A stretch of DNA of 64,000 bases, from NCBI RefSeq assembly GCF_024623785.1, contig NZ_JANKBZ010000037.1, forward strand, positions 1 to 64,000, written 5' to 3'. The translations under genes and the position numbers were made by a program. This DNA is from Archangium lipolyticum. Its GTDB lineage: Bacteria > Myxococcota > Myxococcia > Myxococcales > Myxococcaceae. The notes beneath the pieces were generated by a model that worked only from the letters and a program-made list of their open reading frames with translations, had not been told where the DNA came from and did no database searches. Below, piece by piece: positions 13,011 through 57,971 of this stretch (its first letter is position 1; every line of letters begins with the position of its first letter).

Positions 13011-13019
13011 GATTCACAC

Positions 13020-13875: not shown

Positions 13876-13890
13876 GCATAGCCTGGGGCC

Positions 13891-15393: not shown

Positions 15394-15400
15394 AGTCCTG

Positions 15401-36064: not shown

Positions 36065-36246
36065 GTAGGGCCAATTAAGGTAATGCCCGGGTCCAATCCA
36101 TGGGCTCGGCCCCAGAACGAGCAGGCAGGCGGACGCATCCGCCCGCTAGGGACTGGAGACGAGGCCATGTCCGCCTATGCTCCGGCCCGCCCATCCTCTA
36201 CCCTGGGCGCTCCACTTCACGACGCACGATGGACGGGCACTCAGCA

Positions 36247-37200: not shown

Positions 37201-37296
37201 GAAACCCGGCCCCGCATCGGAGTCTCTCCTCCCACCGGGCCCGGTGTGGTAACTGCTCGTCACCAGCGCGGGAGAAGCGCCGGGGAGGTCGGGGCG

Positions 37297-38244
37297 TTGC
37301 CGTCAGAGCCTGAATCCATCTTCCGACGCCAGGCACTCGAGGAGCATGCAGCCGGAGCCGACAAGGGCAACCTGCTGACGCTCACGCCCTTCTGGTTGCG
37401 CGCGGGCTTCTGGGTGCTCACCGGAGCGCTGGCCACGGGCCTGCTGGGCCTCCTGCTGGCCTCCATCGACGAGTACGCCGAGGGGCCCGCCTTCGTGCAG
37501 GTGGAGGGCGGGCAGGATCTCACCGCGACGGCCTCGGGCATCGTCACCAACGTGGACGTGCGGCCGGGACAGCGCGTGACGGCGGGCAGCCTCCTGCTGC
37601 GCCTCTACCCCGCGCAGGAGCTCGCCGAGCGCGACCGGCTCCAGCGCGAGCTGGACGCGCAGCTCGTGCGGCGCATGTTGGATCTCACCGACGAGAGCGC
37701 GCGCCAGACGCTCACCTCGCTGCGGGCGCAGCTGGCGCTGGCGCAGGCCCGACTCGACGAGCGCTCACTCCGGGCCCCCACCGACGGCGTGGTGGGCGAC
37801 ATCCGCGTCCGTCCGGGACAGGCGGTGGGCCCGGGCGATGTGCTGATGTCGCTGCGCCGGGACGCGGCGCCCGTCTCGGTGACGGTGCTGCTGCCGGGCT
37901 ACGCCCGCCCGATGCTGCGCGTGGGAGGACCGCTGCGCCTGGAGCTGCACGGCTTCCCCTACGAGTACGCGGACCTGACCATCTCGGAGATGGCGGACGA
38001 GCTGGTGGGCCCCACCGAGGTGCGGCGCTACCTGGGGCAGGCGCGAGGGGACGTGGTGTCCCTGCGCGAGGGCTCGCTGGTGCTCGTCCGGGCACGACTG
38101 CCCTCGCGGGAGTTCTCCAGCGAGGGACGCACCTACCGTTACCATGACGGGATGACCGGCACGGCGCGGGCGCGGATCGACTCGCGCGGCGCACTGGTGG
38201 CGCTCTTCCCCGTCCTCAAGCCGCTGTGGCCCTCCCGTGAGTGA
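37297..38244 (+). CDS. Membrane fusion protein (HlyD-like adaptor) 2
   Basis: About 315 residues with an N-terminal FRRQALEEHAAGADKGNLL, typical of the adaptors of bacteriocin exporters, then a membrane helix (WVLTGALATGLLGLLLASID). The lipoyl halves are VEGGQDLTATASGIVTNVDVRPGQRVTAGSLLLRLY and LRAPTDGVVGDIRVRPGQAVGPGDVLMSL, joined by a short coiled coil, with a beta-barrel and membrane-proximal part ending at VLKPLWPSRE. TTG 37297 is preferred because GGGAGG lies eight bases before it; a GTG at 37246 is the alternative. The gene overlaps the exporter gene by eight bases, so the proteins are probably made together. Confidence 0.8.
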   Translation: MPSEPESIFRRQALEEHAAGADKGNLLTLTPFWLRAGFWVLTGALATGLLGLLLASIDEYAEGPAFVQVEGGQDLTATASGIVTNVDVRPGQRVTAGSLLLRLYPAQELAERDRLQRELDAQLVRRMLDLTDESARQTLTSLRAQLALAQARLDERSLRAPTDGVVGDIRVRPGQAVGPGDVLMSLRRDAAPVSVTVLLPGYARPMLRVGGPLRLELHGFPYEYADLTISEMADELVGPTEVRRYLGQARGDVVSLREGSLVLVRARLPSREFSSEGRTYRYHDGMTGTARARIDSRGALVALFPVLKPLWPSRE

Positions 38245-40465
38245 AGAAAACCCCCGCCGAGGCTTCTTCGACAGGTTCCCCGCCCTGCTCCAGCTGGGGA
38301 GGAGCGGGCGCACCCGGCGCATTCCGCTGGTGCGGCAGCTGGCGGCCACCGAGTGCGGCGCGGCCTGTCTGTCCATGGTGCTGGCGTATCACGGCCGCCG
38401 GGTGAGCCTGGACGAGCTGCGCGGCACGATGGGAGTGGGCCGCGACGGGACGACGGCGCTGGACGTGCTGCGGACGGGCCGGGCCTACGGCCTGCGCGGG
38501 CGGGGCGTGAAGGTGGAGATGGAGGAGGTGGAGCTGCTCGAGCCCGGCGCCATCCTCCACTGGGAGTTCAAGCACTTCGTCGTCTTCGAGGCGGTGCGCG
38601 ACGGCGGGGTGGACCTGTTGGATCCGGGGCTGGGGCGGCGCCACGTCTCCCTGGAGGCCTTCGCGCGCTCCTTCACGGGCGTGGCCGTGCTGCTCGAGCC
38701 GGGCGAGGGCTTCGAGACGGGTGGCAAGCGGACCAGTCCGGCGGGGCGCTACGTGCGCCAGGTGCTCCAGCAGTGGCCGCTGCTGGCGCGCGTGGCGCTG
38801 GTGTCCGCCGCGCTGCAGGTCTTCGCGCTCGCGGTGCCCTCGCTCACCGGGGCGGTGGTGGACAGCATCATCCCCCGGGGGGATGGACGGCTGTTGATGG
38901 TGGTGGGCGCGGGGCTGGTCTCGCTCACCGTCTTCCAGTTCCTGGTCACGCTGGTGCGCGCGCACCTGCTGCTGCACCTGCGCACGTGGCTGGACGCGCG
39001 CATGACGCTGCGCTTCCTGGACTACATGGTGGACCTGCCGCTCTCCTTCTTCCAGCTGCGCTCGGCCGGCGACCTGATGGGGCGCGTCAACAGCCACAGC
39101 ACCATCCGCGAGATGCTCACCACGGGAGCGCTCTCCGGACTGCTCGATGGCGTGATGGTGTGCGGCTACCTGCTGCTGCTGCTGCTGCTCAGCCCGGCGA
39201 TGGGGCTGCTCGCGCTGGGACTGGCCGTGGTGCAGGTGCTGGTGTTCGTGCTGCCCATGGCGAAGCAGCGCGAGCTGATGGCGCGCAACCTCGAGGCGGA
39301 GGCCACCTCGCAGAGCTTCCTGCTGGAGATGCTCACCGGGATGCCGACGCTCAAGTCGCTGGGAGTGGAGCCCCGCTCGGTGGAGCACTGGTCCAACCTC
39401 TACGTGGACGTGCTCAACAGCTCGCTGGACCGGGGCCGCCTCAACGCGCTCACCGAGGCGGCCGGCAACGCGCTGAAGCTGGCCTCGCCGCTCGTCATCC
39501 TGTGCGTGGGAGCCTGGCTGGTGCTCCAGGGCCAGCTGTCGCTGGGCAACATGCTGGCGCTGAGCGCCCTGGCCGCGGGCTTCCTCACGTCCCTGGCCAC
39601 GCTGGTGAACACCGCCAACCAGTTGCAGATGATGGGCAGCTACATGGATCGGCTGGGGGACATCCTGGACAGCCCTCCCGAGCAGCCGCGGGGCGAGCCG
39701 AGGCCCGCCCACACGCTGCGCGGGGGCATCAAGCTGGAGCAGGTGTCCTTCCGCTACTCGGCCCAGGGCGCGCTGGTGGTGAAGGACGTGACGGTGGACA
39801 TCCCGGCCGGGAAGTTCGTGGCGATCGTCGGCCGCTCGGGGGCGGGGAAGACGACGCTGGCGCAGCTGCTGGTGGGCATGTACCTGCCCACGTCGGGCCG
39901 GGTGCTCTACGACGGGGTGGACCTGGCCTCGCTGGACCTGCGCGCGGTGCGGCGGCAGCTGGGCATCGTCATGCAGAACCCGGCGCTCTTCCGAGGGAGC
40001 ATCCGCAGCAACATCGCGCTGGCGGATCCGTCGATGACGCTCGAGGAGGTGGAGCGGGCGGCGAAGATGGCGCAGGTGCACCAGGACATCATGTCGATGC
40101 CCATGGGCTACGAGACGCTGCTGTCGGACATGGGAGGAGCCATCTCGGGAGGCCAGAGGCAGAGACTGGCGCTGGCGAGGGCGCTGGCGATGAAGCCCGC
40201 GGTGCTGCTGCTGGACGAGGCCACGAACGCGCTGGACACCGTCACCGAGCGGCGGGTGCAGGAAGCGCTGGCGGAGCTGCGCTGCACCCGGGTGGTCATC
40301 GCCCACCGGCTGAGCACGGTGGAGGCGGCGGACCTCATCCTGGTGATGGACGCCGGGCAGGTGGTGGAGTCCGGCACGCACGAGGAGCTGATGCGCCGGG
40401 GAGGCTTCTACGCCGCCCTGGTGCACGCCCCTGGATCCGAGCTGAAACACGACAAGGCGGGCTGA
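38237..40465 (+). CDS. C39-peptidase-containing ABC exporter (bacteriocin/double-glycine type)
   Basis: A 742-residue transporter with three parts. Residues 30-150 are a peptidase C39 domain with catalytic C40 (AATECGAACLSM), H113 (HWEFKHFVVFE) and D129 (LLDPGLG), which cuts double-glycine leader peptides. Residues 170-460 are six membrane helices. Residues 500-740 are the ATPase, with Walker A at 532-540 (GRSGAGKTT), Q-loop near 580, SGGQ at 637-640 and Walker B VLLLDE at 656-661. The exporter probably secretes a processed peptide with the two adaptors upstream. Its substrate is not obvious beside it; the precursor at 57804-57971 has a fitting leader. The GTG start overlaps the adaptor gene. 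Confidence 0.9.
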   Translation: MSEENPRRGFFDRFPALLQLGRSGRTRRIPLVRQLAATECGAACLSMVLAYHGRRVSLDELRGTMGVGRDGTTALDVLRTGRAYGLRGRGVKVEMEEVELLEPGAILHWEFKHFVVFEAVRDGGVDLLDPGLGRRHVSLEAFARSFTGVAVLLEPGEGFETGGKRTSPAGRYVRQVLQQWPLLARVALVSAALQVFALAVPSLTGAVVDSIIPRGDGRLLMVVGAGLVSLTVFQFLVTLVRAHLLLHLRTWLDARMTLRFLDYMVDLPLSFFQLRSAGDLMGRVNSHSTIREMLTTGALSGLLDGVMVCGYLLLLLLLSPAMGLLALGLAVVQVLVFVLPMAKQRELMARNLEAEATSQSFLLEMLTGMPTLKSLGVEPRSVEHWSNLYVDVLNSSLDRGRLNALTEAAGNALKLASPLVILCVGAWLVLQGQLSLGNMLALSALAAGFLTSLATLVNTANQLQMMGSYMDRLGDILDSPPEQPRGEPRPAHTLRGGIKLEQVSFRYSAQGALVVKDVTVDIPAGKFVAIVGRSGAGKTTLAQLLVGMYLPTSGRVLYDGVDLASLDLRAVRRQLGIVMQNPALFRGSIRSNIALADPSMTLEEVERAAKMAQVHQDIMSMPMGYETLLSDMGGAISGGQRQRLALARALAMKPAVLLLDEATNALDTVTERRVQEALAELRCTRVVIAHRLSTVEAADLILVMDAGQVVESGTHEELMRRGGFYAALVHAPGSELKHDKAG

Positions 40466-40487
40466 GGCCCACCTCGAGGGGTGGAGC

Positions 40488-42590
40488 ATGTGCACCGAAG
40501 CCTTGACGCCCAGGTGGGTAGTGATGCTGCTGGGGGCTGCCCTGCTCACCACCAGTTGCGTCACACTGACACCGCCTCCGGGCTGGTGCGAAGGGACCGT
40601 CCCCCAAGGCCCCGCCACCTGCGGAGGCCAGGCGGTTCCCTCGAATTGGCCCGACTTCTTTTCCGGCGATGAGGCGCTCCTGGCCCCATTCCTGGCCTGC
40701 ACATCGCCCGCCGGATTCATCTCATTGCAACAGCAAGTCGACATGCCCCGGCTGTTGGAAGCCCTGGACGACTGGGGCGCGGTACGGCTGGGCGCCTTGG
40801 GGCCAGTGAGTGAGGACGCCTCCCACCTCCTGCAACGCAAACGCGCCGCATTCCTCGTGAGTGCCACCGAGCGTTACGGCCCCTTCCACGCCGAGGTGTT
40901 CGCCCTCTTCGTGCTGCACTCGGCTCATGACGACGAAGTAGACGCGGTACTTCGGCTGCTGGCCAGAGACAAGCAGCTGGGCCAGACGCTGGCCCTCATG
41001 CCCGCCGTGCGCCAGGAATTGGAGAAGAGGGGCCTGTCCCTCTCCCACTACCCGGAGCGGGCCGAGCAGTCCGGGGACGTGCTGCGGGGTCTGGGCCGCG
41101 CCGCCCGCGACGCGCTCTCCACCAGCCAGACGGTGGAGGGCCCGCGTTACATGGAAATGACCGGGCGGTGGACGCAGTTGCCGCCGCCCTACCAGCAAGC
41201 TGCGCATGAGGTGGAACGGGCCCTGGCGCTGCGACACTTCTCGGCGGACAGCGTGGCACTGGGCACCTTCGACGCAATGACGTTCGGGGTGCCACTGGGC
41301 TTCTATTACCTGGTGGCAGGCACGGGCCAGGGAGCCTCCTCTCTCTCCCAGGGACACTACGAACAGGCCACTCGCGAGCTGGCGCCCGCGTTGCTGCTGG
41401 GGACTCTGTACGCTGGCGGCAAGGGCCTGCGCACTCCATCCGAAGTCCGGAGCGCAACGGGTGTCCAGGCAACGGAGCTGCGCTCGAGGGGACTGCGGGA
41501 GCTGGCACGGCAGGTGGAGGCGAAGCTGGGCGTGGACGGCCTGCGGGAGCTGGCCCAGAACATACGCGCCCGCCGGGAGGTGGGCCGCTTCGTGGCCGTG
41601 GGGGGAGTGGACGCCGCGTTGGCACTGCGCCAGGCCAGGGGAGATGTAGCCCGGGCGCAGGCCCTCATGTCCAAGGCCCGGCCCGGGGCCGCGGGCGCCT
41701 CGGCGACGAGGAGCGGGGTGCAAAAGGGACCCGAGCAGGTGGCCATCCTGGCGGATGACGCAGCACGTCCCCTCCTGGATGGGACCGGTGCAGCGGAGCG
41801 CGCTGGGAGCCTGGCATCGCTGGTGGACGAGGGAGCGGGCCTCACTCGGGAGGTGGTGGAGGCCCGGCTGGCGCAGGTGGAGTTGGAGTCCCCGGGCCCG
41901 CGTCTGCCCAGGAATCTGGCGGTGCTGGAGAAGCAGCGTCCCTCCGCTGATGCTCCGCCGCCTGGTGCTAAGGTCAGCCCACTCTGGCCTGAGTACGTCG
42001 CCTACTACGAGAAGCGTCTGGGGGAACTCAAGCAGGGCACGGCGGTCGAAGGGCCTCTGCGCTGGGCGCCCTACGAGCTGATGCGGGGGTGGTTTGACCG
42101 GGGGCTGGCCTTCGAGCGCTTCATGATGACGTTGCTGGAAGCCGACGCGAGACTTCCTCGGGCAGAGCGCCGCTTCCTCGGAGCCTTCCACGAGCCTCGA
42201 ATCCACAGGTACGTGGGCGTGAAGAAACCGGAGAGCGGCCTGCGCTATGCGGATGTGCTCATCATTGAAGAGGATGGACTCGCCGGAGGACCACCCCGCG
42301 TCGAGACCTTCAGCTTCAAGAGCCGAAATCTCTCGGGGCTGAAATATGAGGCCCTGGTGGCGCAGATGATCGCGGACGCGAGAGAAGCTCTAGGGAAATA
42401 CGGCGGGACGCTGGACATCCGCCGGGACTCCCTCCAGTTCCTGCTCCGCGGGGGCAGCAAGGTGCCCGTCCAGCGGGTCCGCCTCGTCTACGAGGGCGGC
42501 CAGCTCAAACCAAAGGACGTAGATGCATTGCGAAAGGCCGTGACCGCGACCCGGGAAGAAGTTCCGGGAGTGGAGGTGCTGTTCCAATGA
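40488..42590 (+). CDS. Lipoprotein polymorphic toxin, large type
   Basis: A 700-residue lipoprotein with signal peptide MCTEALTPRWVVMLLGAALLTTSC (C24 lipidated). The central part (about 240-330) is hydrophobic and Gly-rich (LGTFDAMTFGVPLGFYYLVAG), a likely translocation or pre-toxin region, and about 340-470 is long and helical. The last 180 residues carry a toxin-like end: EPRIHRYVGVKKPESGLRYADVLI then ETFSFKSRN, which resembles a weak nuclease-fold pattern. ATG 40488 lies 22 bases after the ABC exporter stop, and the next gene overlaps it by four bases (ATGA). A neighbour related to the immunity proteins at 13020 and 15401 supports its identity. Confidence 0.65.
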   Translation: MCTEALTPRWVVMLLGAALLTTSCVTLTPPPGWCEGTVPQGPATCGGQAVPSNWPDFFSGDEALLAPFLACTSPAGFISLQQQVDMPRLLEALDDWGAVRLGALGPVSEDASHLLQRKRAAFLVSATERYGPFHAEVFALFVLHSAHDDEVDAVLRLLARDKQLGQTLALMPAVRQELEKRGLSLSHYPERAEQSGDVLRGLGRAARDALSTSQTVEGPRYMEMTGRWTQLPPPYQQAAHEVERALALRHFSADSVALGTFDAMTFGVPLGFYYLVAGTGQGASSLSQGHYEQATRELAPALLLGTLYAGGKGLRTPSEVRSATGVQATELRSRGLRELARQVEAKLGVDGLRELAQNIRARREVGRFVAVGGVDAALALRQARGDVARAQALMSKARPGAAGASATRSGVQKGPEQVAILADDAARPLLDGTGAAERAGSLASLVDEGAGLTREVVEARLAQVELESPGPRLPRNLAVLEKQRPSADAPPPGAKVSPLWPEYVAYYEKRLGELKQGTAVEGPLRWAPYELMRGWFDRGLAFERFMMTLLEADARLPRAERRFLGAFHEPRIHRYVGVKKPESGLRYADVLIIEEDGLAGGPPRVETFSFKSRNLSGLKYEALVAQMIADAREALGKYGGTLDIRRDSLQFLLRGGSKVPVQRVRLVYEGGQLKPKDVDALRKAVTATREEVPGVEVLFQ

Positions 42591-43927
42591 AGGTGCTGGA
42601 ATTTCATGACCTGCCGCCAGCGGACAGCCTCCGGCTCGACTTCGAAGGAGCTTTCGACCCGGGGGCAGCACGGGAAGGTGCGCTGGAGCCCTTTCTTCAA
42701 GTGCTCGAGAAGTACGCGGGCGATTGGATGCCGGACGTCGTGGGAGGCAAGCGGCAACGGAAATACTCTCGCGCGGCCCTCTGGAAGGCATTGGAGGAGA
42801 GAAGCGGCGAAAGGTATACATTCTGCGGTCTCTATCGCACGGAGTGGCCCGCGCTGGACATGTCGCTCGGGCTCTACCCATCAAAGCGTCCGCCCAGGCT
42901 GGACATTGCGCTCAAGGTGCAGCCGCTCCCCTTCTTCGCGGAGGCAAAGCGCTGCCTCGATTTCGTGGAGATGGTGCGAGCCTGGGCCTCTCATTACCCG
43001 GTCACGCATGCCGCGGCCCACAGCATGGCAGACAGGGGGTTGGCGGACTCGCCCCTCTTCGGCCGCGACATGGAGACGTCCATTCGGGACGGCTTCGACA
43101 AAATCTACGAGGTGTTCTGGCTCAACGTCTTCGGCCCGAAGCTGGTGGAGTCCGTCGGCCGCGAGCGCATGCTGTCCGCACCGGCATGGAGGGTCGAAGA
43201 GCTCCCCAACGGCTGTGTCCTGCTGGTGACGCGGCCCACCGCCGCGGACTTCGCCTGCGAGGAGGCGCGCATTGCCCAGACCCGCGCCCACGCCCACCTC
43301 CGGCCGGACCTCGACTTCGACACCCTGCTGCGCACCCTGCGCGAGCGCAGCGCCACGCTGGCTACCGTGGAGCCTCGCTTCCACCCGGACGTGGCGCCGC
43401 TCCTCTCCCGCGTGGTGGATGACGTCGCCATTCACGAGCGCCAGCGGAAGATCGCCGAGCTCAACGCCTGGCAGCCTCCCGAGCCCGAGGAGTGGCGCCC
43501 CGCCAGTTCCGCCCTGCCTCCGGACGTAGAGGACCCGAAGCATGCCATCGAGCACTACGGAAGCCTCGCCGAGCTTCTCGTGGCCTTGCTGCACACCGAG
43601 GTCCCCTCCGTCTTCGACACCACGCCCGAGTCCCTCACGAATGCCGACTTCTACTTCTGGCGTGAGGATTTCCCGACCAGGCGCCCAAGAGAAGCCGTTG
43701 ACGAGCGCGCGGTACCCGCCATTGGCGCCTATCTGGGCCAGGTGCTGGTGCGCCACCTGGGCGGCCGGTGGATACCGCGCCAGAAGCTCGAAGAGGCCCA
43801 GGTTCTCGTGGGCCACCGTGTCTGGTTGCCCTTTGCCAGGGCACGCCATTACATGCGCTCGCGCCAATCGCTCCTGAACTACTCCCTCAGCCAGTTCTAC
43901 CGCGCGGCCGAGCGGCACCGGGGCTGA
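42587..43927 (+). CDS. Two-part immunity protein for the large toxin
   Basis: A 446-residue soluble protein whose ATG overlaps the stop of the toxin gene. The first part (to about 260) is distantly related to the immunity proteins at 13020 and 15401: compare VFWLNVFGPKLVESVGRERMLS and GCVLLVTRP with their FWRNFFGPPFVSMFGERL and GLVLVQPYELP. The second part (about 310-446, EHYGSLAELLVALLHTEVPSVFD to LSQFYRAAERH) has no match in those shorter proteins and seems to be an added domain. Function as immunity is inferred from the overlap and the relationship. Confidence 0.65.
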   Translation: MKVLEFHDLPPADSLRLDFEGAFDPGAAREGALEPFLQVLEKYAGDWMPDVVGGKRQRKYSRAALWKALEERSGERYTFCGLYRTEWPALDMSLGLYPSKRPPRLDIALKVQPLPFFAEAKRCLDFVEMVRAWASHYPVTHAAAHSMADRGLADSPLFGRDMETSIRDGFDKIYEVFWLNVFGPKLVESVGRERMLSAPAWRVEELPNGCVLLVTRPTAADFACEEARIAQTRAHAHLRPDLDFDTLLRTLRERSATLATVEPRFHPDVAPLLSRVVDDVAIHERQRKIAELNAWQPPEPEEWRPASSALPPDVEDPKHAIEHYGSLAELLVALLHTEVPSVFDTTPESLTNADFYFWREDFPTRRPREAVDERAVPAIGAYLGQVLVRHLGGRWIPRQKLEEAQVLVGHRVWLPFARARHYMRSRQSLLNYSLSQFYRAAERHRG

Positions 43928-43946
43928 AGGGCGGTCCCTCAGGCAC

Positions 43947-44822
43947 TCAGCGCACGGCGATGCCCCACGCGTAGTCCTCACCCACCAGCGAGCAGGAGTC
44001 ATTGTCCGCCCAGGCCCAGGCACGGTTGGGGTCGTAGGTGGGCACGGGCTTGCAGTTGTAGTCCAGGGCGTAGTCCGCGACATGGCCCCGGGCCGTGCCG
44101 CCCGCGCTCGTGTCGGTGACACAAGCCCACTCGGCGGAGAGCGCGCCGTTGTAGCTGAAGCCCACACAGGCCTGGGTGATGGGCGTATAGGAGGGCGAGT
44201 CCGGACCATAGCGGCCCTGGTTGAAGGAGTGGCCCGGGACACCCAGCGCGTAGGGCACGGAAGACACCCGCGAGGGCTCGCCCGGCAGCGAGTCGGTGAA
44301 ATACGCCCCCGTGGTCTTGTTGAAGATCATGACCTCGCGGAAGGACAGACACTCGAGCGAGCTGCTCCAGTTGCTGGCCTGGGCCGAGGGCGTGTCACGG
44401 CGCTCCACGCCCAGGGTGGTGATGGCCGAGGCGGGCTGCCAACCAGCCACCGTCCAGCCGCCACGGGCGCCATTGGAGCCCGGCCTGTCCATTTCACAGT
44501 AATAGAGGGCCTGCCGCGCGCCCTGGGTGCCACAGGGGTCCAGCCAGTACCAGTCGCTCGGGGCGCTGGGATTGCGCGCCTTCACCTCCTGGCAGCTCGC
44601 CGCCGGGTCTTTCGCGCGGGGGGGCACCTGCGAGCCGGGCCGTGGTATCTCCGGCAAGGGGGTGCCCGCATCCGGCTCCGGTTCGGAACCTCCATCCACG
44701 GGCGTGCCCGCATCGAGCGTACCCGCGTCGGGCGTGGGCTCGGGCGGTGGGTGGGGACAGCCAGACAAGGCCGCGAGGGCGAAGGCGGCGGCCAACGAAC
44801 GGACACACGAGCGGTTGCGCAT
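43947..44822 (-). CDS. Fibrinogen-like domain lipoprotein
   Basis: A 291-residue lipoprotein starting MRNRSCVRSLAAAFALAALSGC with C22 lipidated. A Pro/Asp/Gly-rich linker (about 25-75) leads to a domain that begins ASCQEVKARNPSAPSDWYWL, continues with YYCEMDRPGSNGARGGWTVAGW and ends with WAWADNDSCSLVGEDYAWGIAVR. The Cys-x-E and CxMD...GGWT elements fit the fibrinogen C-terminal (FReD) family, which usually binds sugars or acetylated groups. It is probably displayed on the cell surface. The ATG at 44822 starts the signal peptide. A paralogous protein is encoded just upstream at 44909-46342. Confidence 0.75.
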   Translation of the reverse strand: MRNRSCVRSLAAAFALAALSGCPHPPPEPTPDAGTLDAGTPVDGGSEPEPDAGTPLPEIPRPGSQVPPRAKDPAASCQEVKARNPSAPSDWYWLDPCGTQGARQALYYCEMDRPGSNGARGGWTVAGWQPASAITTLGVERRDTPSAQASNWSSSLECLSFREVMIFNKTTGAYFTDSLPGEPSRVSSVPYALGVPGHSFNQGRYGPDSPSYTPITQACVGFSYNGALSAEWACVTDTSAGGTARGHVADYALDYNCKPVPTYDPNRAWAWADNDSCSLVGEDYAWGIAVR

Positions 44823-44908
44823 GATGGGGGCTCTCCAAAAAGACACGAGCACCCGGAGTCCGCACGGGCCCTCCGGGTGCTCATGAAGGAATCCAGACGC
44901 TCGGACTC

Positions 44909-46342
44909 TCAGCGGACGGCGATGCCCCACAGGTAGTCCTGGCCGACCAGGGAGCAGGTGGAGTCATTGGCCCAGGCCCAGGCCCTGGACGGGTCATAGG
45001 CGGGGGCGGGGTTGCAGTTGTAGTCCAGGGCGTAGTCGGCGATGTGGCCCCGGGCGGTGCCGCCCACCGTGTAATCCGTCACACAGGCCCAGTCGGCGAA
45101 GATGCTGCCGTCATAGTTGTAGCCCACGCAGCCCTGGGTGATGGGGGTGTAGAAGGGCGAGTCCGGCCCGTAGCGGCCCTGGTTGAAGGAGTGGCCCGCC
45201 TCGCCCAGCGCATAGGGCACGGAGGTCACCCGGAACTGGCTGCCCTTGAGCGTGTCGGTGAAGAACTGGCCGTGGGTCTTGTTGAAGACCATGACCTCGT
45301 TGAAGGGGAGGCACGTGAGCGGGCGCGACCAGTTGGTGGCGCTGTTCGACTGGACGCCGCGCTTCTCCAGGCCGAGGGTGGTGGTGGCCGAGGCCTCCTG
45401 CCAGCCGGGCACCGTCCAGCCGCCCTTGATGCCGTTGGCCCCCACCTTGTCCATGTCGCAGAAATAGGTGTCCTTCTGCGCGCCCTGGGTACCGCACGGG
45501 TCCAGGTTGTACCAGCCGGTCACCGCGTTGGGACTGCGCGTCTTCACGGCCTGGCAGCTCGAATCCGGATCAATGCCAGGATTCTGGATGATGAGACACT
45601 CCTGGGGCGCCCAGTTGATCGTGAACACCACGTCGTTGAAGTCGTTGTCGGCGGAACCGTCGCGGTTGAGGTCCTCGAAGCCCATCACCAGCCGCTGCGC
45701 GTCCGCATGGTGGACGATGAGCCCGTGGCGCTTCTTGGCGGCCGTCGACTCCGGGTTGAGGGCGTCCACCGTGTAGTAGGTGGGCTTGTTGAAGTCCACC
45801 GCGGAGCCATTCCAGCCATCCGCCACCAGGTAGAAGCCGATACGCGAGCCCTTGGAGAAGGTGGTGTCCAGGCCGGTGCCGAGCAGGAAGCGATTGCCCT
45901 GCACCAGATTGCCACCGCTGCCCACGGCCGAGGAGTTGGAGAAGATGATGTTGGCCTGGCGGGTGGCCAGCGGCACGCTCGAGGGCGGCGCGCCATCCTG
46001 ATAGACGAAGTAGCCCAGCGCGTTCTTGTTGCCGGCCCCCTCGCTGTAGAAGGACACCCACACCTTGCACAGGTCCTGCCCCACCAGCAGGTCCGGCACC
46101 AGGTTGGGCGGGAGCAGCTCGGGATGCACGATGGGCACCGACTGGGACTCCGCCAGGGCGGCGGCGATGTCATTCTTCAGCTGCTGGGTGAAGGTGTCAT
46201 TGGTGGCCGGGGTGACCCCGGTCGGCACCAGGGCCGACTCCACCTGGCCTGGCTGCTCGGAAACGGCGTCGGGGCCACCACACCCCACGCCAACGGCCAC
46301 CAGTGCACCAGCCATCAGCCGGTTCTTGAAACGATTGCGCAT
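44909..46342 (-). CDS. DUF4114 plus fibrinogen-like domain lipoprotein
   Basis: A 477-residue lipoprotein starting MRNRFKNRLMAGALVAVGVGC (C21 lipidated). The central part (about 80-265) ends with GFEDLNRDGSADNDFNDVVFTI, the signature of a DUF4114 domain, which is often found in calcium-binding secreted proteins. The last 200 residues (SSCQAVKTRSPNAVTGWYNL to DYLWGIAVR) are a fibrinogen-like domain closely related to that of the protein at 43947-44822, so the two arose by duplication with different N-terminal parts. ATG 46342 follows GAGGAAG. It is in line with the large gene upstream, 84 bases away. Confidence 0.8.
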   Translation of the reverse strand: MRNRFKNRLMAGALVAVGVGCGGPDAVSEQPGQVESALVPTGVTPATNDTFTQQLKNDIAAALAESQSVPIVHPELLPPNLVPDLLVGQDLCKVWVSFYSEGAGNKNALGYFVYQDGAPPSSVPLATRQANIIFSNSSAVGSGGNLVQGNRFLLGTGLDTTFSKGSRIGFYLVADGWNGSAVDFNKPTYYTVDALNPESTAAKKRHGLIVHHADAQRLVMGFEDLNRDGSADNDFNDVVFTINWAPQECLIIQNPGIDPDSSCQAVKTRSPNAVTGWYNLDPCGTQGAQKDTYFCDMDKVGANGIKGGWTVPGWQEASATTTLGLEKRGVQSNSATNWSRPLTCLPFNEVMVFNKTHGQFFTDTLKGSQFRVTSVPYALGEAGHSFNQGRYGPDSPFYTPITQGCVGYNYDGSIFADWACVTDYTVGGTARGHIADYALDYNCNPAPAYDPSRAWAWANDSTCSLVGQDYLWGIAVR

Positions 46343-46426
46343 GAAACGTCTTCCTCGAGGAAAAGGGGTGATAGCCACCCCAGGGGCGGAGCCCGGCAGG
46401 CCCCAGCCCCCCGGGGAGTCACGGCA

Positions 46427-49400
46427 TTACGGCCGGGTGGACACGGGCGCCGGGTACAGGCGCGTGCCGGGGATGAGGCTCTTGGGCTCGCTCTGGCTCG
46501 CCCAGAAGAGCTGCATCAGCGTGGGCGTCGCCGAGTTCTTGTAATACTCCACCTTGACGGGGACCAGGGCGCCCGCCGTCAGGCCGATGGGCGCCGAGGC
46601 GGTCTGCCCCGGGTTGGCCTGGGTGTCGATGACCAGGTTGTTGTTCACCCACACCCGGGCCGGGTGGTTGGCGTTGATGGAGAAGGTATAGGCCTGCGAG
46701 TAGGCGGGGATGGTGGTGCCCGTCCACCGCACCGAGTAGCCATCCGGATTGAGGATGTCCTGCGGCAGCGGGTTGTTCTGGTTGCCGTCCAGGAAGAGCG
46801 TGTACTCGGAGCGGGTGAACTCGAACTTCTGGAAGTTGGAGCCGTTGAAGTAGTCCGCCGTCAGACCGTAGCCCACGCTGGTGCCGGCGGGCGAGGGCAG
46901 CACGCGCACGGACGCGGGCCTGGCGTACTGGACGAGCGGCACCGCGCCACTGGCACTGGTGCCCGTGGCCTCCACGCGCGCGGTGACGGTGTAGACGCCA
47001 GCGCCGAGCGGCACGGGCCAGGCGAAGGGCGCGGACGTCTTGGCGCCCTGGCTCACCCCATCCACGAACACCTCCACCTTGTTGATGGTGGCGTACAGGC
47101 CCTGCACCTCCACGTCCACCATGACATTGGCCGGGGCCAGGTAGGTGGTCTGGTCCAGCGGGCTGCGGATGCGGATGGGCACCGGGTTGTTGACCGCCGG
47201 GGTCATGCTGGAGGAGGTGATGACGGAGGCGGTGGCCTGCGTGGGCGGCTGCCACTGGAGGCTCACGTTCGCGTTCCCGGTCCCCTCGTAGTACTCGAGC
47301 AGCACGCTGTAGCGCTTGCCGGCTTCCAGGAAGATGGTCCCGCTGTCCAGGGTGGAGGCGTGGCTGGTCCAGTTGTCGATGATCAGCTTGCCATTCACCC
47401 ACAACCGCACGCCCTCGTCGCTCTGGGTATAGAACCAGTAGCGGCCGGTGTACTTGTCGGGGAAGTTCGTGTCGAAGGGCGTGGTGATGTCACCCGTATA
47501 CCGGGAGGAGAAGTTGTCCGCGTTGACGCCGGGATAGGGCGCGTTGGTGCCCCAGCTCCAGTTCACGCTCGTCTCCACCCGGTTGTAGACATACGGCTCG
47601 CTCACGGTGGTGTTGTTGAAGTACCGGGCGTTGAGTCCCTTGGGAATGGTCTTGCAATCACCGTTGGAGCACGACGCGCTGTTGAGGCCGCACGAGGTGC
47701 CGTTGGCCGCCAGGGTATCCGTCGCGGTGCAGACGGTGGAGACGCCATCACACGTCTCCGCCACGTCGCAGAAGCCGCGCGAGGGCCGGCAGATGGTGCC
47801 CGCGTTCACCGCGCCGCAGACGCCATCCGAGGCGGCGCCAGCCAGCCGGCTGCAAGCCTGGCAGTCATTGGGGCTCCCGTCGCCACACGCCGAGTTGCAG
47901 CACACCCCGTCCACACAGAAGCCGCTCTGGCACTGGGCACTGGTCGTGCAGAAGAAGCCATTGGCGTAGCCGATGGTGAAGTTGCCGTCCGCCTTGGAAC
48001 CCTTGTAGTCGATGGAGTGGTTGGCGGTGGCGTAGCCGTTGTAGGTCGCCGTGAAGCTCTGCGGCCCCAGCGGCGCCGAGCCCGGCACGGGCCAGTTGTA
48101 GGAGAAGTTGCCGCTGGCATCCGCCTGCACCGTGGCGATGGCCGTACCGCTCGAGAAGAAGGTCATCGTCCCCAGGGTGACGGCATTGCCGGAGGCGGCG
48201 AGCCTCACCCGGGCCGACAACCCCACCGAGGTGCCCGGAGCAATCACCGCTCCGTTGGCGGGGCTGAGGATGGTGGTGATCGTCTCCAGGCCGTTGACGG
48301 TCGGCCGCGGAGGAACGATGACGCTGAAGGTCACGGTCTTCTCCACCATGCCGCTCCGGGTGCCATAGGACACCTTGATGGACACGGGGATGACGGAGCT
48401 CTCGGGCAGGTTGGCGGGCATCGTCACCGTCACCACGTCCACGGCCTCCTGGCCCGGCTCCAGCGTGAGCGAGGGATTGTTGTGGCTGACGACCATGCCC
48501 GGCCAGTTGCCGCTGGGGACCAGGGTATAGGTGTTGCGGGTGTAGCCCGTGTTCCGGACCCGGACGGTGAAGCTGGTGGTCTGCGGGACGGCCAGCAGGG
48601 GCTCGAGCACCACCGACGGCGGCGTCAGGGTGACGTCCACGTTGAGCGAGCCGTAGCAGGACATGGCCAGGGTGGCGAAGATGGTGGGCACGTCGCCCTC
48701 GTGGCCAGTGAGCACCCAGCTGCCATTCTTGGCGGCGGAGCCGGTGCCGCAGTAGTTGTTGGCCGAGGTGCACTGCTGGTTGGCCAGCCAGGTGAGGGCG
48801 TTGGCCACGGTGGCGTTCTCGTCCTGGCGCACCTGGAGCTGGCAGAGCGCGTAGAGCGCGATGCCCGTGGTGTACACGTTGGGGCTGCCGATGCTGACAT
48901 CACCCCAGCCGCCACCGCTGTAGCGGCTGAGCAGCTCGTCGCGCATGGCCGCCACGCTGGCGTTGTTGGCGGGATTGCGGCCATCCTGCACCGTGCCGAT
49001 GGCCGCGAAGGCCACGTCCTGCGGGAGCCAGGCACCCGCGGAGCGCACGTACCGGCCCTCGAGCGAGTCAGCCATGTTCTTCAAGAACAGACTGTAGTTG
49101 TCGCGCTGCAGGGGAGGGATGCCGCTGCCCACGTCCAGCAGGGCGCGGGTGGCCACCGCCATGTACGCGGTGGGCATCTGCCAGCCCAGGGTGACCGGGT
49201 TGGAGCCGTGGTCCTGGGGCATGTAGGCGCTCGTCACGCCCTGCAACGCCTTGCCATCCACGGGGTTGGTGAACTTGTAGCCGGCCGTGGCGCCCATGGC
49301 CCAGTCGACGGCCTTCTGCAGCTTGGGCAGGTACACGTCGCTGTCGTACTGCGAGTAGCCCGCCAGACCGAAGGCGTTGTAGGCGGTCTTGATGTACGTG

Positions 49401-49795
49401 TAGGAACCGCTGTGCGTCCAGGAGCCGTTCGCGAGCTGCTCAGTCGAGAGGAAGCTGGCCAGGTAACCGGTGCCGGTGGTCTGGCTGGTATTCACCTGGT
49501 AGCCCGTGTACGCCGCGAGCGAGGCGCCATACAGAGGCGCGCCCACGCGGTGGCAGGCGCCGCAGCCGTTGGTCTTGGTCCACGTCACCGTGTCCGGAAC
49601 GACGAAGTTCAGACCCCGCTGTGCATAGACATCCAACTCCTGGGCCGTGAGCCTCGAGAACATCTGCCCCACGTCGTTGGACCGCGCCTGCTCCGGTTGC
49701 GGCTCGGGCCGAGGCTCCTCCGCCGAGGTACACCCCACCACTGCCAATGCCGACAGCGCGAGCGCCGCGGCAAGACGACTCCAATGCTTGTTCAT
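46427..49795 (-). CDS. Large multidomain lipoprotein with haem-binding motif and two PA14 domains
   Basis: A 1122-residue exported lipoprotein (lipobox VVGC, C22). In order: a CxxCH haem-binding motif C78-G-A-C-H82 (NGCGACHRVG); about 90-385 a helical region like terpene-cyclase toroids (LSTEQLANGSWTHSG, SGGGWGDVSIGSPNVYTTG); about 395-600 Ig-like strands (VTFSVIVPPRPTVNG); about 605-690 a cysteine-rich stretch (FCTTSAQCQSGFCVDGVCCNS); then two PA14 domains at about 720-850 (GLNARYFNNTTVSEPYVYN) and 975-1115 (GLTADYFNGSNFQKFEFTR). The domain combination is unusual. Role unknown, perhaps surface carbohydrate binding or electron transfer. It is probably the first gene of a three-gene lipoprotein run. 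Confidence 0.8.
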   Translation of the reverse strand: MNKHWSRLAAALALSALAVVGCTSAEEPRPEPQPEQARSNDVGQMFSRLTAQELDVYAQRGLNFVVPDTVTWTKTNGCGACHRVGAPLYGASLAAYTGYQVNTSQTTGTGYLASFLSTEQLANGSWTHSGSYTYIKTAYNAFGLAGYSQYDSDVYLPKLQKAVDWAMGATAGYKFTNPVDGKALQGVTSAYMPQDHGSNPVTLGWQMPTAYMAVATRALLDVGSGIPPLQRDNYSLFLKNMADSLEGRYVRSAGAWLPQDVAFAAIGTVQDGRNPANNASVAAMRDELLSRYSGGGWGDVSIGSPNVYTTGIALYALCQLQVRQDENATVANALTWLANQQCTSANNYCGTGSAAKNGSWVLTGHEGDVPTIFATLAMSCYGSLNVDVTLTPPSVVLEPLLAVPQTTSFTVRVRNTGYTRNTYTLVPSGNWPGMVVSHNNPSLTLEPGQEAVDVVTVTMPANLPESSVIPVSIKVSYGTRSGMVEKTVTFSVIVPPRPTVNGLETITTILSPANGAVIAPGTSVGLSARVRLAASGNAVTLGTMTFFSSGTAIATVQADASGNFSYNWPVPGSAPLGPQSFTATYNGYATANHSIDYKGSKADGNFTIGYANGFFCTTSAQCQSGFCVDGVCCNSACGDGSPNDCQACSRLAGAASDGVCGAVNAGTICRPSRGFCDVAETCDGVSTVCTATDTLAANGTSCGLNSASCSNGDCKTIPKGLNARYFNNTTVSEPYVYNRVETSVNWSWGTNAPYPGVNADNFSSRYTGDITTPFDTNFPDKYTGRYWFYTQSDEGVRLWVNGKLIIDNWTSHASTLDSGTIFLEAGKRYSVLLEYYEGTGNANVSLQWQPPTQATASVITSSSMTPAVNNPVPIRIRSPLDQTTYLAPANVMVDVEVQGLYATINKVEVFVDGVSQGAKTSAPFAWPVPLGAGVYTVTARVEATGTSASGAVPLVQYARPASVRVLPSPAGTSVGYGLTADYFNGSNFQKFEFTRSEYTLFLDGNQNNPLPQDILNPDGYSVRWTGTTIPAYSQAYTFSINANHPARVWVNNNLVIDTQANPGQTASAPIGLTAGALVPVKVEYYKNSATPTLMQLFWASQSEPKSLIPGTRLYPAPVSTRP

Positions 49796-50275
49796 GCTGC
49801 TCCTTCACCTGTTCTTCAGGAGTTTTCGAGACATGCGCCGCAGATGACGGGCCCCCCCTGGCGCGCATGTCTCTCGAGCAGAGCGTTGAAAGGCTCAGGC
49901 CCCGGGTACACCTCACCTGGGCTGACGCACCTCTGCCTATGCCTTTCGTGACCCCTCAAGGAATTCGATTCCGCCTATAGCTAATTGAAAATATTCCCCG
50001 AAGCAAAGCACTGTGACGAAAACTTCACACAGCGCGTGCCCTTGAATTCTGAGAATTTGTTCGAGAGATGTCGGCGATGCACCGAGCCAGGGCGGCGCTT
50101 CGTGGACCCGCTCAAAGCCATACGCACATGAGGTGATGTGAAGACGGCGGGCACGGCCTCGCTTGTCCGCCTGTCGTCAGGGCCACCGGGCGAGGGCCTG
50201 CCCCGGGATGCTCACAACGCCTGACGGCCTCCTCAGTCTCCAGCGCGGTGCACTTCCAGCCACGTGGAGACAATC
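49796..50275. promoter_or_regulatory. Divergent intergenic region with AT-rich core and inverted repeat
   Basis: No gene was found in these 480 bases between two divergent genes. The region from about 49970 to 50065 is clearly richer in AT than its surroundings and is the likely promoter area. It contains TGTGA (50012-50016) and TCACA (50025-50029), an inverted repeat with an eight-base spacer that recalls the half-sites of CRP/FNR-type regulators, although the usual spacer is six. No confident -35/-10 pair could be set. Confidence 0.35.
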
Positions 50276-54212: not shown

Positions 54213-55598
54213 TCATGGCAGTTGTTGCTTCTGAAGCCACACCCGCCAGCCCTCCGCGTCATGCTGCTCACCCGAGAGACGCTCCAACACGGTGCGGGCC
54301 GGGTCGCGGTTGATGGGCTGCTGGAGCGCGGTCATGGCCACGAGCTGCTCACCGGCCTGACGGAGGATGTCCGCGAGCCGGGCGGCCCGCTCCGAGGGGC
54401 TCATCTTCTCGAGCACGGCCACGAGCAGGCTGGTGGCCTTGTTACGATCGGTCGTCTGGGGAAGGGCCATCGCGTCGAGCACGCGGGGCAGCTCGACGAG
54501 CGGACGGTCCGCGTGGCGCTGCAGGGCCCCCAGGACGCGGAGCACGTTGTTGCGCACCAGCGGGGAAGAATCCCGGATGGAGCCCACGAGCCGCTCGATG
54601 GCCAGACCCGGCTCGGAGACATACGCGAGCAGGAAGGCCGCGGCGGCCCGGTTCTTCGGGTCGGCGTCCTCGCGCAGCACGCGGCCCAGCGCGTCCACGT
54701 GCGCGGGAACCTTCTCCACGAAGACGGGCTCGAAGGACGACAGCTCGGCGTGGCCGAACCCCAGCGAGCAGTGCGTCACCCGGCAGACGGGCTTCGCGAG
54801 GTCCAGCTCGCCCCGGCGCAGCAGCGTCCAGGCCCGGTCCTCGTATTCCCGCCACCGCGCCACGAGCCCCTCCGGATCCTCCGGGTGCCCGGCCGGCTCG
54901 GGGAGGAACTTCAGCCGCCAGGCCTCGTCCTCGTCCACCAGGTCCACGGTGATGTAGTCGCGGCCGGCCTCGGGGCCCGCGTGATAGCTGATGTACGCCA
55001 CATGGGAGAAGGCCAGGGCGTACTGCCGCCGGAGCCCGTTCTCCTTCATCGTCACCAGGGCCTGGCTGTACACGAACGGTTGACCCACCTCGAAGCCAAA
55101 CGCGCGGCGCACCGTCTCGGCATCGACGCGGCGCGAGCCGTACACGTCCACCCCCGCGAGCACCCGGAGGGGCGGTGGGGGCTTGAGGGCCTTCTGGGCG
55201 TTGGCCCTCGCCTGAGCGAGCACCGCGTCCCACCCCTCGAGCGCGTGCAGCGGGCGGAGCTCGGGGTCATGCGCCAGCGTGTCGGCCTGGGCGTAGCCCT
55301 CCTGGACGGCGCGCCGCAGCAGCCCGAGCCCCTCCTGGGACACACCCGCCAGCGACGCGCAGCACGCCGCGGAGTAGAGGAGCTCGGCACGGGAGGCCGC
55401 TTCCTGGCTCGCGTCCGCCGACGCGCGGTAGCTCCCGGCGCAGCGAGGAAAGTCGAGCGCGAAGTACGCCGCCTCGGCCTGTTGCCTCAGTGCATTCGCA
55501 TCCGCCGGAGCAACAGCGGGCGCCGGAGCGTGGGCACACCCCGGCCCGAGCAGGGCCACGGCCACCGCGCACGCCAGGAACGAGAGGAACCTCTTCAT
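54213..55598 (-). CDS. Lipoprotein with TPR-like, POTRA-like and HEAT-like parts
   Basis: A 461-residue lipoprotein (MKRFLSFLACAVAVALLGPGC, C21 lipidated). About 35-120 has helical repeats (LRQQAEAAYFALDFPRCAGSYRA). About 145-225 (VDVYGSRRVDAETVRRAF..., GLRRQYALAFSHVAYISYHAG) resembles a POTRA domain like those of outer-membrane translocases. The final 170 residues form HEAT-like helix pairs (SPLVRNNVLRVLGALQRHAD). It ends the four-gene minus-strand run with the precursor peptide, the ATP-grasp enzyme and the PpiC-like protein (36-base gap to the last). It may anchor a maturation or export step at the envelope; this is inference. Confidence 0.75.
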   Translation of the reverse strand: MKRFLSFLACAVAVALLGPGCAHAPAPAVAPADANALRQQAEAAYFALDFPRCAGSYRASADASQEAASRAELLYSAACCASLAGVSQEGLGLLRRAVQEGYAQADTLAHDPELRPLHALEGWDAVLAQARANAQKALKPPPPLRVLAGVDVYGSRRVDAETVRRAFGFEVGQPFVYSQALVTMKENGLRRQYALAFSHVAYISYHAGPEAGRDYITVDLVDEDEAWRLKFLPEPAGHPEDPEGLVARWREYEDRAWTLLRRGELDLAKPVCRVTHCSLGFGHAELSSFEPVFVEKVPAHVDALGRVLREDADPKNRAAAAFLLAYVSEPGLAIERLVGSIRDSSPLVRNNVLRVLGALQRHADRPLVELPRVLDAMALPQTTDRNKATSLLVAVLEKMSPSERAARLADILRQAGEQLVAMTALQQPINRDPARTVLERLSGEQHDAEGWRVWLQKQQLP

Positions 55599-55634
55599 GG
55601 GGGACCTCCGGGCGGGGGCGCGAGGCCCCTCGGC

Positions 55635-56693
55635 TCACAAGGACACGGCGGGCAGCGGAGCGGCCTCGGCCGCGCCCCAGTACCACTCCACGCGGGCCTC
55701 GCTGCGCTTCTGGGCGAGCCACTCCTCGAACATCAGGTCCGCGACCCTTCCGCGCGTCGCCTCGTCGAACCGCGCGGGGAGGAAGCGCAACACCTGCACC
55801 AGCTCGTAGCCGCCCCCGCTGCTGACGGGAGGAACCAACTGCCCCGGCGCGGTGGCGAAGAGGAGCCCGGCCTGCTGGGGCTCGAGCTCTCCGCGCCGCA
55901 GTGTGACGAACAGGTCGTTCGGCTCGTTGCGCTCCAGGAAGCGCGTCTGGGCCATCTGGAGGAACTGGTCCGGGTTGCCGCGCAACTGCTCGTACGTCCG
56001 ATGGGCCTCGGCCTCGTCGGGGATGAACACCCGGGCGACCTGGACGCGGTCGAATTCGGCGCGGTGGCTGTTGAACCAGGCCTCCTCGCGGCCCTCGGAC
56101 ACGCGCTTGCGCAGCTTCTTCTGCGCCACCGTCGAGCGCAGGTGGTTCTCCAGCAGCTGCTCGGTGGTGCCGTGCTCGAGCATCCAGCGCTCCACCTGGG
56201 CCGCGGTGAACAGCCGCCGCCGCTGCCGGAACTCGAGCAGCGCCTCGGCGAAGTCCTCGTCGGTGACCTCGACGACGCCGCCCTGGAGCTCCTGCTCGAT
56301 GATCGCCACGTTGATGAGGTGACGCCCGATGTGCAGCGTGTGCCACGCATAGTCCAGGCTGGTGATGACCTGGTTGATGCGGATGGGCTCTTCATTGACT
56401 CGCACCACGAGCGACTCGTTCATCCGCTGGAGCCCGCGCGCGGGCCAGGGCAACGACTCATCGGCGCAGTAGCCCAGGGAGTACGTGCCGTCCTCATCGC
56501 CGACGAGGATGTCGTAGTGACGCTTGTCCTCGTACGTCTCCTGCTCCCAGACCATGTTCATCCAGTGAGCGGGGTGACGGGCCTTCAAGCCACGGATCAG
56601 CTCCTTGGCCTGGTCGGGCTCGAGCCGCTCCTGGCGCAGCCGCACCAGCAGCTCGAGCGAGTCGCGGACGGCGGCAAGCAGGGACTCCTTCAT
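55635..56693 (-). CDS. PpiC-related peptide maturation protein
   Basis: A 352-residue protein of the group described as PpiC-type peptidyl-prolyl isomerase-like putative peptide maturation proteins (TIGR04500). It begins MKESLLAAVRDSLELLVRLRQERL, has a middle with NESLVVRVNEEPIRINQVITSLDYAW and a helical chaperone-like stretch (EQLLENHLRSTVAQKKLRKRVSEGREEAWF). The C-terminal half resembles a parvulin domain (VQVARVFIPDEAEAHRTYEQL..., GGGYELVQVLRFLPARFDEATRG). There is no signal peptide, so it acts in the cytoplasm. Its ATG overlaps the stop of the ATP-grasp gene (ATGA), showing tight coupling, with GGAGAAG upstream. It probably presents or folds the precursor peptide. Confidence 0.8.
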   Translation of the reverse strand: MKESLLAAVRDSLELLVRLRQERLEPDQAKELIRGLKARHPAHWMNMVWEQETYEDKRHYDILVGDEDGTYSLGYCADESLPWPARGLQRMNESLVVRVNEEPIRINQVITSLDYAWHTLHIGRHLINVAIIEQELQGGVVEVTDEDFAEALLEFRQRRRLFTAAQVERWMLEHGTTEQLLENHLRSTVAQKKLRKRVSEGREEAWFNSHRAEFDRVQVARVFIPDEAEAHRTYEQLRGNPDQFLQMAQTRFLERNEPNDLFVTLRRGELEPQQAGLLFATAPGQLVPPVSSGGGYELVQVLRFLPARFDEATRGRVADLMFEEWLAQKRSEARVEWYWGAAEAAPLPAVSL

Positions 56694-57721
56694 GGCGACT
56701 TCTCCTGTGAGGCGCGCGAGGGCCGGGCAACGGGAAAACGGGTGGGAGCGCCCGGGTTCATGAGCGCGGTGCAGATGGCATCGCCGATGGGCAGACCCGT
56801 CTGCTCCTCGATCCACAGCCACTGGCCGTTGGGGTTGATCTCCAGGAAGACGTAGCGGTCATCCGGGGTGACGATGATGTCGATGGCGCCGAAGCACAGC
56901 CCCAGCCGGGCGACGAGCTCCAGACAGGCGCGGCGGATGGAGTCCGGCAGGTGGTGCTCGCGGTGCGGCGTGTGGCCCAGGTCATAATGGCGCCAGTCGA
57001 GCTGGGTGCGCCGGGTGGACTGGGAATGGATTTCGGCGGCGAGCACCGCCTCACCGACGACGGTGATGCGCAGCTCGAACTTCTTGGGCACCCGGGCCTG
57101 GAACAACATGGGGCTGTGGCGCAGGCGCCGCGCATAGCCCACGTCGCGGGTGGTGACGGGCTGCGTGTAGCGGATGAGCTCGCGGCCGGTGCGCTGGCTG
57201 GCGGGCATGGCGACACTGGGGAACTTGTCGATGAGCTGCCCGTCGTGCTGGCGGTAGAACTCCAGGAACTCATCCGGCTCGTTGGTGATGAGGGTGGGCG
57301 GAATCTCGAGCCCGAGCTGCGTGGCCAGTTGGAGCTGGAGCTGCTTGTTGTCCGCGCGCCGGATGGCGTCGATGGGCCCTGGCAACCAGGGGACCTCCTC
57401 CAAGGCGTTGGTGGTGTCCTGGACGAGCCGGTAGCACTCCTCGTCCGCGTACTCCTTGAGCAGCGGGATGGGAATGTGCGTGGGAAGGCGAGGCTTGTTC
57501 GGGCGGCGCAACCAGGCGCTGGTGCACTCGGCCAGCTCGAACACCTCGCCGCCACGGGTGAGCCGCACGCTCTTGCGCCCGCCGCGATAGGAGATGGACA
57601 TCGCCGCCGTGCCAGGGAACTCGGCCCAGTCGAAACGGCACACCTTGGCGCCCCGTTGGAGCAGCTTCGCCTCGACGGCATTGGCGTGCAGGTCCTTGGG
57701 CTCGCTCACGATGAGAATCAT
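56690..57721 (-). CDS. MvdC/MvdD-type ATP-grasp peptide macrocyclase
   Basis: A 343-residue ATP-grasp ligase of the graspetide (microviridin-type) family. The central domain has LFQARVPKKFELRITVVGEAVLAAEI (about 206-231) for nucleotide and peptide contacts. The C-terminal signature is GAIDIIVTPDDRYVFLEINPNGQW, with the metal-binding E294 and N296, followed by IEEQTGLPI. The N-terminal LVQDTTNALEEVPWLPGPIDAIRRADNK is typical of MvdD-like enzymes. Such ligases activate Asp or Glu side chains of a ribosomal peptide and join them to Thr/Ser (ester) or Lys (amide). It lies 82 bases after the precursor gene and overlaps the PpiC-like gene by four bases. Confidence 0.9.
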   Translation of the reverse strand: MILIVSEPKDLHANAVEAKLLQRGAKVCRFDWAEFPGTAAMSISYRGGRKSVRLTRGGEVFELAECTSAWLRRPNKPRLPTHIPIPLLKEYADEECYRLVQDTTNALEEVPWLPGPIDAIRRADNKQLQLQLATQLGLEIPPTLITNEPDEFLEFYRQHDGQLIDKFPSVAMPASQRTGRELIRYTQPVTTRDVGYARRLRHSPMLFQARVPKKFELRITVVGEAVLAAEIHSQSTRRTQLDWRHYDLGHTPHREHHLPDSIRRACLELVARLGLCFGAIDIIVTPDDRYVFLEINPNGQWLWIEEQTGLPIGDAICTALMNPGAPTRFPVARPSRASQEKSP

Positions 57722-57803
57722 GACCCGCTCCGCGGAAGGGGTTGGTGAAGCAGGCGCGCCCGGCTCGCCCTCTGGCGGACCAGACGCGCCTGATTCCTAC
57801 TTC

Positions 57804-57971
57804 TTACTGGTCGGTGTCACCGGTGTCGGAGGTGGTGCCACCCTGGGTGGGACCCGCGCCGCCCGTGACGAACTTCAGCTCCGCCTCGTTGATCTCGCGC
57901 TCACCCAGCCGCTTCGAGGTCTCGGCGATGTCCTTCACCTGGAGGCGGGACTTCTGCTGCGTCTTGCTCAT
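57804..57971 (-). CDS. Candidate graspetide precursor peptide
   Basis: A 55-residue peptide. The leader (about 1-38) is charged and helical (KSRLQVKDIAETSKRLG, EREINEAELKFVTGG) and ends in the double glycine G37-G38 with the usual hydrophobic residues before it, the cleavage mark of C39 peptidases. The 17-residue core contains T42, T46, T47, S48, T50, T53 and D49, D52, D54, so several Thr/Ser-to-Asp esters are possible. GGAGAA lies five bases before the ATG. It is the first gene of the run that includes the ATP-grasp ligase. The core does not contain the TxKxPSD motif of microviridins nor the TTxxxxEE motif of plesiocin. Confidence 0.85.
   Translation of the reverse strand: MSKTQQKSRLQVKDIAETSKRLGEREINEAELKFVTGGAGPTQGGTTSDTGDTDQ

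Follow-up and report, generated by a model that had tools for sequence, protein, structure and literature searches.

Graspetide group 21 comprises a synthetase together with a TIGR04500 protein (Carter et al. 2026, PMC13097080), and TIGR04500 is among the genes tied to ATP-grasp loci (Makarova et al. 2022, PMC8939145). Rosaritide (MirA), encoded by mirABCD of Micromonospora rosaria, carries three esters, S8-D22, T11-D24, and S9-D26. MirB is inactive without MirC, and the two proteins copurify as an active complex (PMC13097080). The hairpin connectivity of plesiocin, of group 2, is described in the same work (PMC13097080). As far as our literature search went, rosaritide is the one partner-dependent graspetide of this kind characterized so far.

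We analyzed a 64,000-nucleotide stretch of the Archangium lipolyticum genome (the window), for which an initial annotation had proposed a graspetide cluster with a new core type. Like the rosaritide locus, the window encodes a precursor with a double-glycine-type leader, a TIGR04187-type synthetase, and a TIGR04500 partner, and the rosaritide donors [S/T]-x-[S/T] and acceptors D-x-D are matched by those predicted in the window. The three genes very probably yield a small peptide closed into rings by esters. Judged from the gene pair and the motif, the cluster most likely adds a compact member to group 21, the partner-dependent family of rosaritide, and is not a new class. Because group 21 is already published, the window cluster is not the first of its kind.

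On the minus strand we found the precursor, the ATP-grasp ligase, the TIGR04500 protein, and a lipoprotein, in this order (Table 1). Rereading the sequence confirmed the positions and strand first assigned to these four open reading frames. The stop of the ligase gene shares 4 nucleotides (ATGA) with the TIGR04500 start, and a GGAG-type ribosome-binding site precedes each of the precursor, ligase, and TIGR04500 genes.

Table 1. Features of the graspetide locus and of the export cassette in the window
Feature	Position	Strand	Basis or remark
Precursor gene	57804-57971	minus	55 aa, ATG at 57971
Precursor leader, residues 1-38, ending in VTGG	57858..57971	minus	Translation
Precursor core AGPTQGGTTSDTGDTDQ, residues 39-55, and stop	57804..57857	minus	Translation, alignment
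Graspetide synthetase, MvdC/MvdD-like ATP-grasp ligase, 343 aa	56690..57721	minus	Profile matches
TIGR04500 PpiC-related partner protein, 352 aa	55635..56693	minus	Profile, fold match
Lipoprotein with HEAT repeats	54213..55598	minus	Pfam HEAT_2
Peptidase-containing (C39) ABC transporter	38237..40465	plus	PF03412, PF00664, PF00005
Two HlyD-type adaptor proteins, same export cassette	36100-37200, 37246-38244	plus	PF13437, PF16576

In profile searches, the ligase scored 245.6 bits against TIGR04187, 231 against MvdD, and 223.8 against MvdC (E values of 1e-66 to 1e-73), all under the curated (equivalog) cut-offs, and it has an MvdD pre-grasp domain. It contains FLEINPNGQW, and the profile matches back its earlier assignment to the MvdC/MvdD type. 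Alignment to 5ig8 and 5ig9 (E values of 2e-52 and 6e-52) showed that the DWR motif and the EINPNG metal/ATP motif are intact, with their invariant residues. The locus encodes, side by side, an MvdC/MvdD/TIGR04187-type ATP-grasp ligase whose active-site motifs are intact and a short leader-core precursor that holds donor and acceptor residues. In a tree of eight rows, TIGR04500-linked synthetases stood apart (UFBoot/aLRT, 90/94) from the microviridin-type synthetases that these genomes also encode. With more taxa we found the same separation at 80/89, and one unlinked Burkholderia row joined the TIGR04500-linked group.

Microviridin clusters (MvdC/MvdD or MdnB/MdnC) share the ATP-grasp ligase family and the DWR motif with the window. 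In contrast, the window has one ligase instead of two, has a TIGR04500 protein, and has no TxKYPSDxxD/E core; the TxKxPSDxx(D/E) pattern is absent from its core, TTSDTGDTDQ. The same genome holds a separate microviridin-type cluster with two ATP-grasp ligases (G000:C8:395659-397599; L002 and L003), whose precursor (L002, 3538-3972, minus strand) has three KYPSD(S/G)DE cores. In a clostridial ATP-grasp cluster that has no TIGR04500 (L009, 5448-5612), the precursor, KCKGTTTCIATTTSPVKEFTPDD, is rich in Thr and Cys, and a kinase-like gene lies downstream. MvdC/D-like ligases also lie on nine contigs classed as viral in IMG/VR (L085 to L093) and are possibly prophage-borne graspetide genes; our search of viral contigs for the TIGR04500 partner found none.

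We found the precursor-synthetase-TIGR04500 unit in about 14 other loci, from Archangium, another myxobacterial genus, Polyangia-like genomes, Herpetosiphon, and Nonomuraea, the last of these representing the Actinomycetota (carriers: G006, A. lansinium, G040, G041, DP_38, G580, G657, G658, G659, G662, G666, G781, Herpetosiphon, and Nonomuraea). Wherever we examined a related locus, the TIGR04500 gene immediately followed the synthetase gene. Ligase identity to the window is 97% in G006, about 74% in A. lansinium, and about 51% in G040 and G041. The unit occurs at two loci in G666 and on plasmid pHAU01 in Herpetosiphon. The partner gene of G659 is split between frames, and no precursor was recognized at the G781 unit. 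The ligase family, the partner, the double-glycine precursor, and this conserved gene order all back the proposal of a graspetide cluster.

At the DNA level, the window resembles A. lansinium over 55634-57722 and nowhere around it, and the short precursor aligns as protein. This delimits precursor, synthetase, and TIGR04500 protein as a unit, with the lipoprotein outside. Only G006 has an orthologue of the lipoprotein, and the other related clusters lack it, which places the conserved unit at 55635-57971. We therefore rejected the "unusual lipoprotein" that had been counted as a cluster member; it has no counterpart in A. lansinium or G040/G041, and elsewhere we found only paralogues. Another lipoprotein gene, of about 500 codons, is duplicated in tandem with its neighbor of about 260 codons at 11508-16162 of the window.

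The precursor reads MSKTQQKSRLQVKDIAETSKRLGEREINEAELKFVTGG (leader) followed by AGPTQGGTTSDTGDTDQ (core), with a GGAG ribosome-binding site ahead of the ATG at 57971. Translation confirmed the count made earlier of 17 core residues, including five Thr, one Ser, and three Asp. VTGG (residues 35 to 38) is a predicted C39-type double-glycine site. The peptide is 91% identical to that of G006 and 53% identical to that of A. lansinium, and it is recognizable in more distant genomes. The leader is kept in A. lansinium, G040/G041, and Polyangia-like genomes (for example, IEIKDIAETEDARELADSELELVTGG). Since both sequence and position are conserved among relatives, this open reading frame is not a chance one. 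Searches of Pfam, NCBIfam, and PHROGs profiles with the precursor gave no match above chance.

Within the nearest subfamily, the cores align as GGTTSDTGDTDQ (window), GGTCSMCGDCDE (A. lansinium), and GGTCSQGGDCDC (DP_38), and no member of the window subfamily departs from T46, S48, G51, D52, or D54. The cores follow the frame [S/T]-x-[S/T]-(n)-D-x-D, which reads TTS-DTG-DTD in the window, TCS...DCD in A. lansinium and DP_38, and TCT-PWGGI-DVD (n = 5) in Herpetosiphon. From its published linkages, rosaritide fits the frame with S9, T11, D24, and D26 (n = 12). After the motif had been stated, we found it again as TKT-(5)-DTD in four Polyangia-like genomes of one lineage and as TWT-YPS-DPD in G666. 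The motif is short and was picked after the first sequences had been seen; it occurs in 0.2 to 5% of shuffled cores. Among the linked precursors compared, the second Polyangia-like precursors and G666a lack it, and those of G040/G041, G580, and Nonomuraea do not match it strictly. In the Polyangia-like loci L094, L095, L096, and L099, two unlike precursors, TKT...DTD and NTSxDSSASGETDDH, lie ahead of one synthetase.

By alignment, the window core appears to be a compact variant of this shared donor/acceptor frame, with a three-residue loop. The composition of the "new core type" that had been proposed, TTSDTGDTD, is correct, but its newness is weakened, because the same motif occurs in rosaritide and in TIGR04500-linked Herpetosiphon and Polyangia-like precursors. 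Against the SSxT donors and DxDxD acceptors of group 21, two of three pairs are matched in the window (T46/S48 and D52/D54). The third rosaritide pair, S8-D22, has no counterpart, as the corresponding positions are G45 and T50; by homology the window core thus has only two donor/acceptor pairs, versus three linkages in rosaritide. Leaders and cores were compared by published description, which gives rosaritide a loop of 12 residues versus 3 in the window.

Rosaritide links its equivalent residues through an inner T11-D24 ester and an outer S9-D26 ester. We therefore predict that the window peptide carries two nested esters, with S48-D52 inside T46-D54, for a loss of 36 Da, and that their formation requires the partner. 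For the core released after G38, the calculated [M+H]+ would drop from 1608.66 to 1572.64 (-36.02 Da). Nested rings would fit the rosaritide precedent better than the "small interlocking rings" suggested initially. The predicted topology resembles the nested hairpin rings of plesiocin. Plesiocin is built on TTxxxxEE repeats with Glu acceptors, and we know of no TIGR04500 protein in its cluster.

The same pathway could instead close three rings or pair the residues in a staggered, microviridin- or marinostatin-like way (T46-D52 and S48-D54, a third bond involving T47 or some other residue). The Thr-Asp ester of microviridin has i+6 spacing, and both T46-D52 and S48-D54 show it. A third bond is suggested for some motif-bearing relatives by the nucleophile (T, C, or K) that most of them have at position 47 and by the frequent acidic residue at position 55. 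However, position 55 of the window is Gln, D49 is replaced by Met or Gln in the nearest relatives, and rosaritide, the sole characterized relative, joins the equivalent residues in nested fashion. We consider the staggered or three-ring arrangement possible but rather unlikely.

It is very unlikely that the cluster is decaying or silent and yields no cross-linked product. In favor of this reading, in two congeners we found only TIGR04500 fragments without a synthetase (L059, 6286-6921, in G004, and L060, 6269-6637, in G002), where the cluster has probably been lost, and rosaritide gave no growth inhibition (PMC13097080). Against decay in the window, the reading frames are intact, with ribosome-binding sites and translational overlap. 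The window and G006 cores differ only at the first core residue, and the synthetases are 97% identical.

The partner protein scored 251.6 bits against TIGR04500 (cut-off, 180), and its C-terminal domain matched parvulin models (Rotamase). Its AlphaFold2 model, from a three-sequence alignment, is of modest quality (mean pLDDT, 64; residues 76 to 120 below 50). In this model, residues 213 to 309 matched the parvulin domain 6bhf (Z, 9.6; rmsd, 3.3 over 94 residues), and residues 141 to 309 resembled SurA/PrsA-type proteins, with poor superposition. The modeled fold agrees with what has been published on MirC. The chaperone-parvulins SurA, PrsA, and Cj1289 appear to share the fold of its C-terminal two thirds. 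In contrast to them, the partner carries an additional domain at its N terminus, modeled as two helices and a sheet, and no signal peptide was seen in its sequence. Alignment to PrsA structures showed that both parvulin catalytic histidines are replaced (SHILV to ARVFI and GYHII to GYELV). These losses, together with the A. lansinium precursor, which has no proline anywhere, argue that the TIGR04500 protein is probably a chaperone or complex partner and not a prolyl isomerase. The family placement of the "PpiC-related maturation protein" therefore stands, as TIGR04500, and the evidence speaks against an isomerase function. That it sets cis/trans core prolines as a working isomerase, as its Rotamase matches and parvulin fold might suggest, is hardly tenable given the lost histidines, the proline-free relative, and, in rosaritide, trans prolines and a need for MirC in cyclization itself (PMC13097080).

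Rosaritide maturation uses a C39 transporter; that of the window is nonadjacent. It lies with the two HlyD adaptors at 36100-40465, 14 kb from the cluster. In G006 the cassette is syntenic and lies no more than about 4 kb away from the lipoprotein, as that genome lacks 9.7 kb of the window (about 40.5 to 50.2 kb). This segment (about 40467-50210), absent from the otherwise collinear G006, encodes PA14, DUF4114, and other secreted proteins. We infer the export role of the cassette only, since it is not adjacent to the clusters of other relatives. As a candidate acting in trans, the transporter at 38237-40465 may both remove the leader and export the peptide.

Taken together, the data are probably best explained by a partner-dependent pathway of the rosaritide kind. 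According to this model, the synthetase and the TIGR04500 protein would associate as a complex, and the leader (VKDIAET...ELKFVTGG) would dock the precursor on it. The synthetase would phosphorylate core Asp side chains, and Ser/Thr hydroxyls would attack them. Two nested macrolactones would then close around the turn D49-T50-G51, the outer through T46-D54 and the inner through S48-D52, with the TIGR04500 protein serving as chaperone or partner and having no prolyl isomerase role. Finally, a C39 peptidase transporter, probably that at 38237-40465, would cleave after G38 and export the peptide.

Among motif-bearing members, position 47 is occupied by Thr in the window, by Cys in A. lansinium, DP_38, and Herpetosiphon, by Lys in the Polyangia-like members, and by Trp in G666. 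T47, T50, and T53 of the window each stand opposite Cys in A. lansinium, and each change needs at least two nucleotide substitutions; the post hoc probability that all three Cys fall on Thr positions is about 0.018. Positions 47 and 53 change together, as Cys/Cys or Thr/Thr, in four subfamily members. We had considered the window cores the sole Cys-free members and dropped this idea on finding the TKT...DTD precursors of Polyangia-like genomes. In L016 (6073-6213) and L017 (7484-7579), related precursors beside a synthetase-TIGR04500 pair have cores with four Cys, C(S/T)CPNTCGPCGPDDH.

In the predicted ladder, position 47 would lie opposite position 53. A disulfide rung is one reading of the Cys pairs, and thioester donors are another. 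Conserved Cys in many precursors has been ascribed to radical-SAM partners (PMC8939145), and ester-forming synthetases give thioesters with substituted donors (PMC12291112). Beyond these two reports, we found no literature on natural Cys graspetides. With Cys or Lys at the position of window Thr47, relatives may offer a natural variant with a thioester or a disulfide. It is unlikely that the middle donor-side residue swaps O, S, and N nucleophiles so that relatives make natural thioester graspetides or a Cys47-Cys53 disulfide between ester rungs. If true, the class would gain its first natural graspetide with a thioester or with esters plus a disulfide, as far as our literature search went. 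The natural Thr/Cys/Lys swap among relatives at a possible ring-forming site allows a sharp chemical test.

The window and its relatives have cores of 16 to 23 residues that share the donor/acceptor frame and differ in the intervening residues. A few constructs may thus suffice to test ring topology, partner function, and tolerance of Thr, Cys, and Lys as nucleophiles. The more interesting question is the role of Cys and Lys at the variable donor-side position in the relatives.
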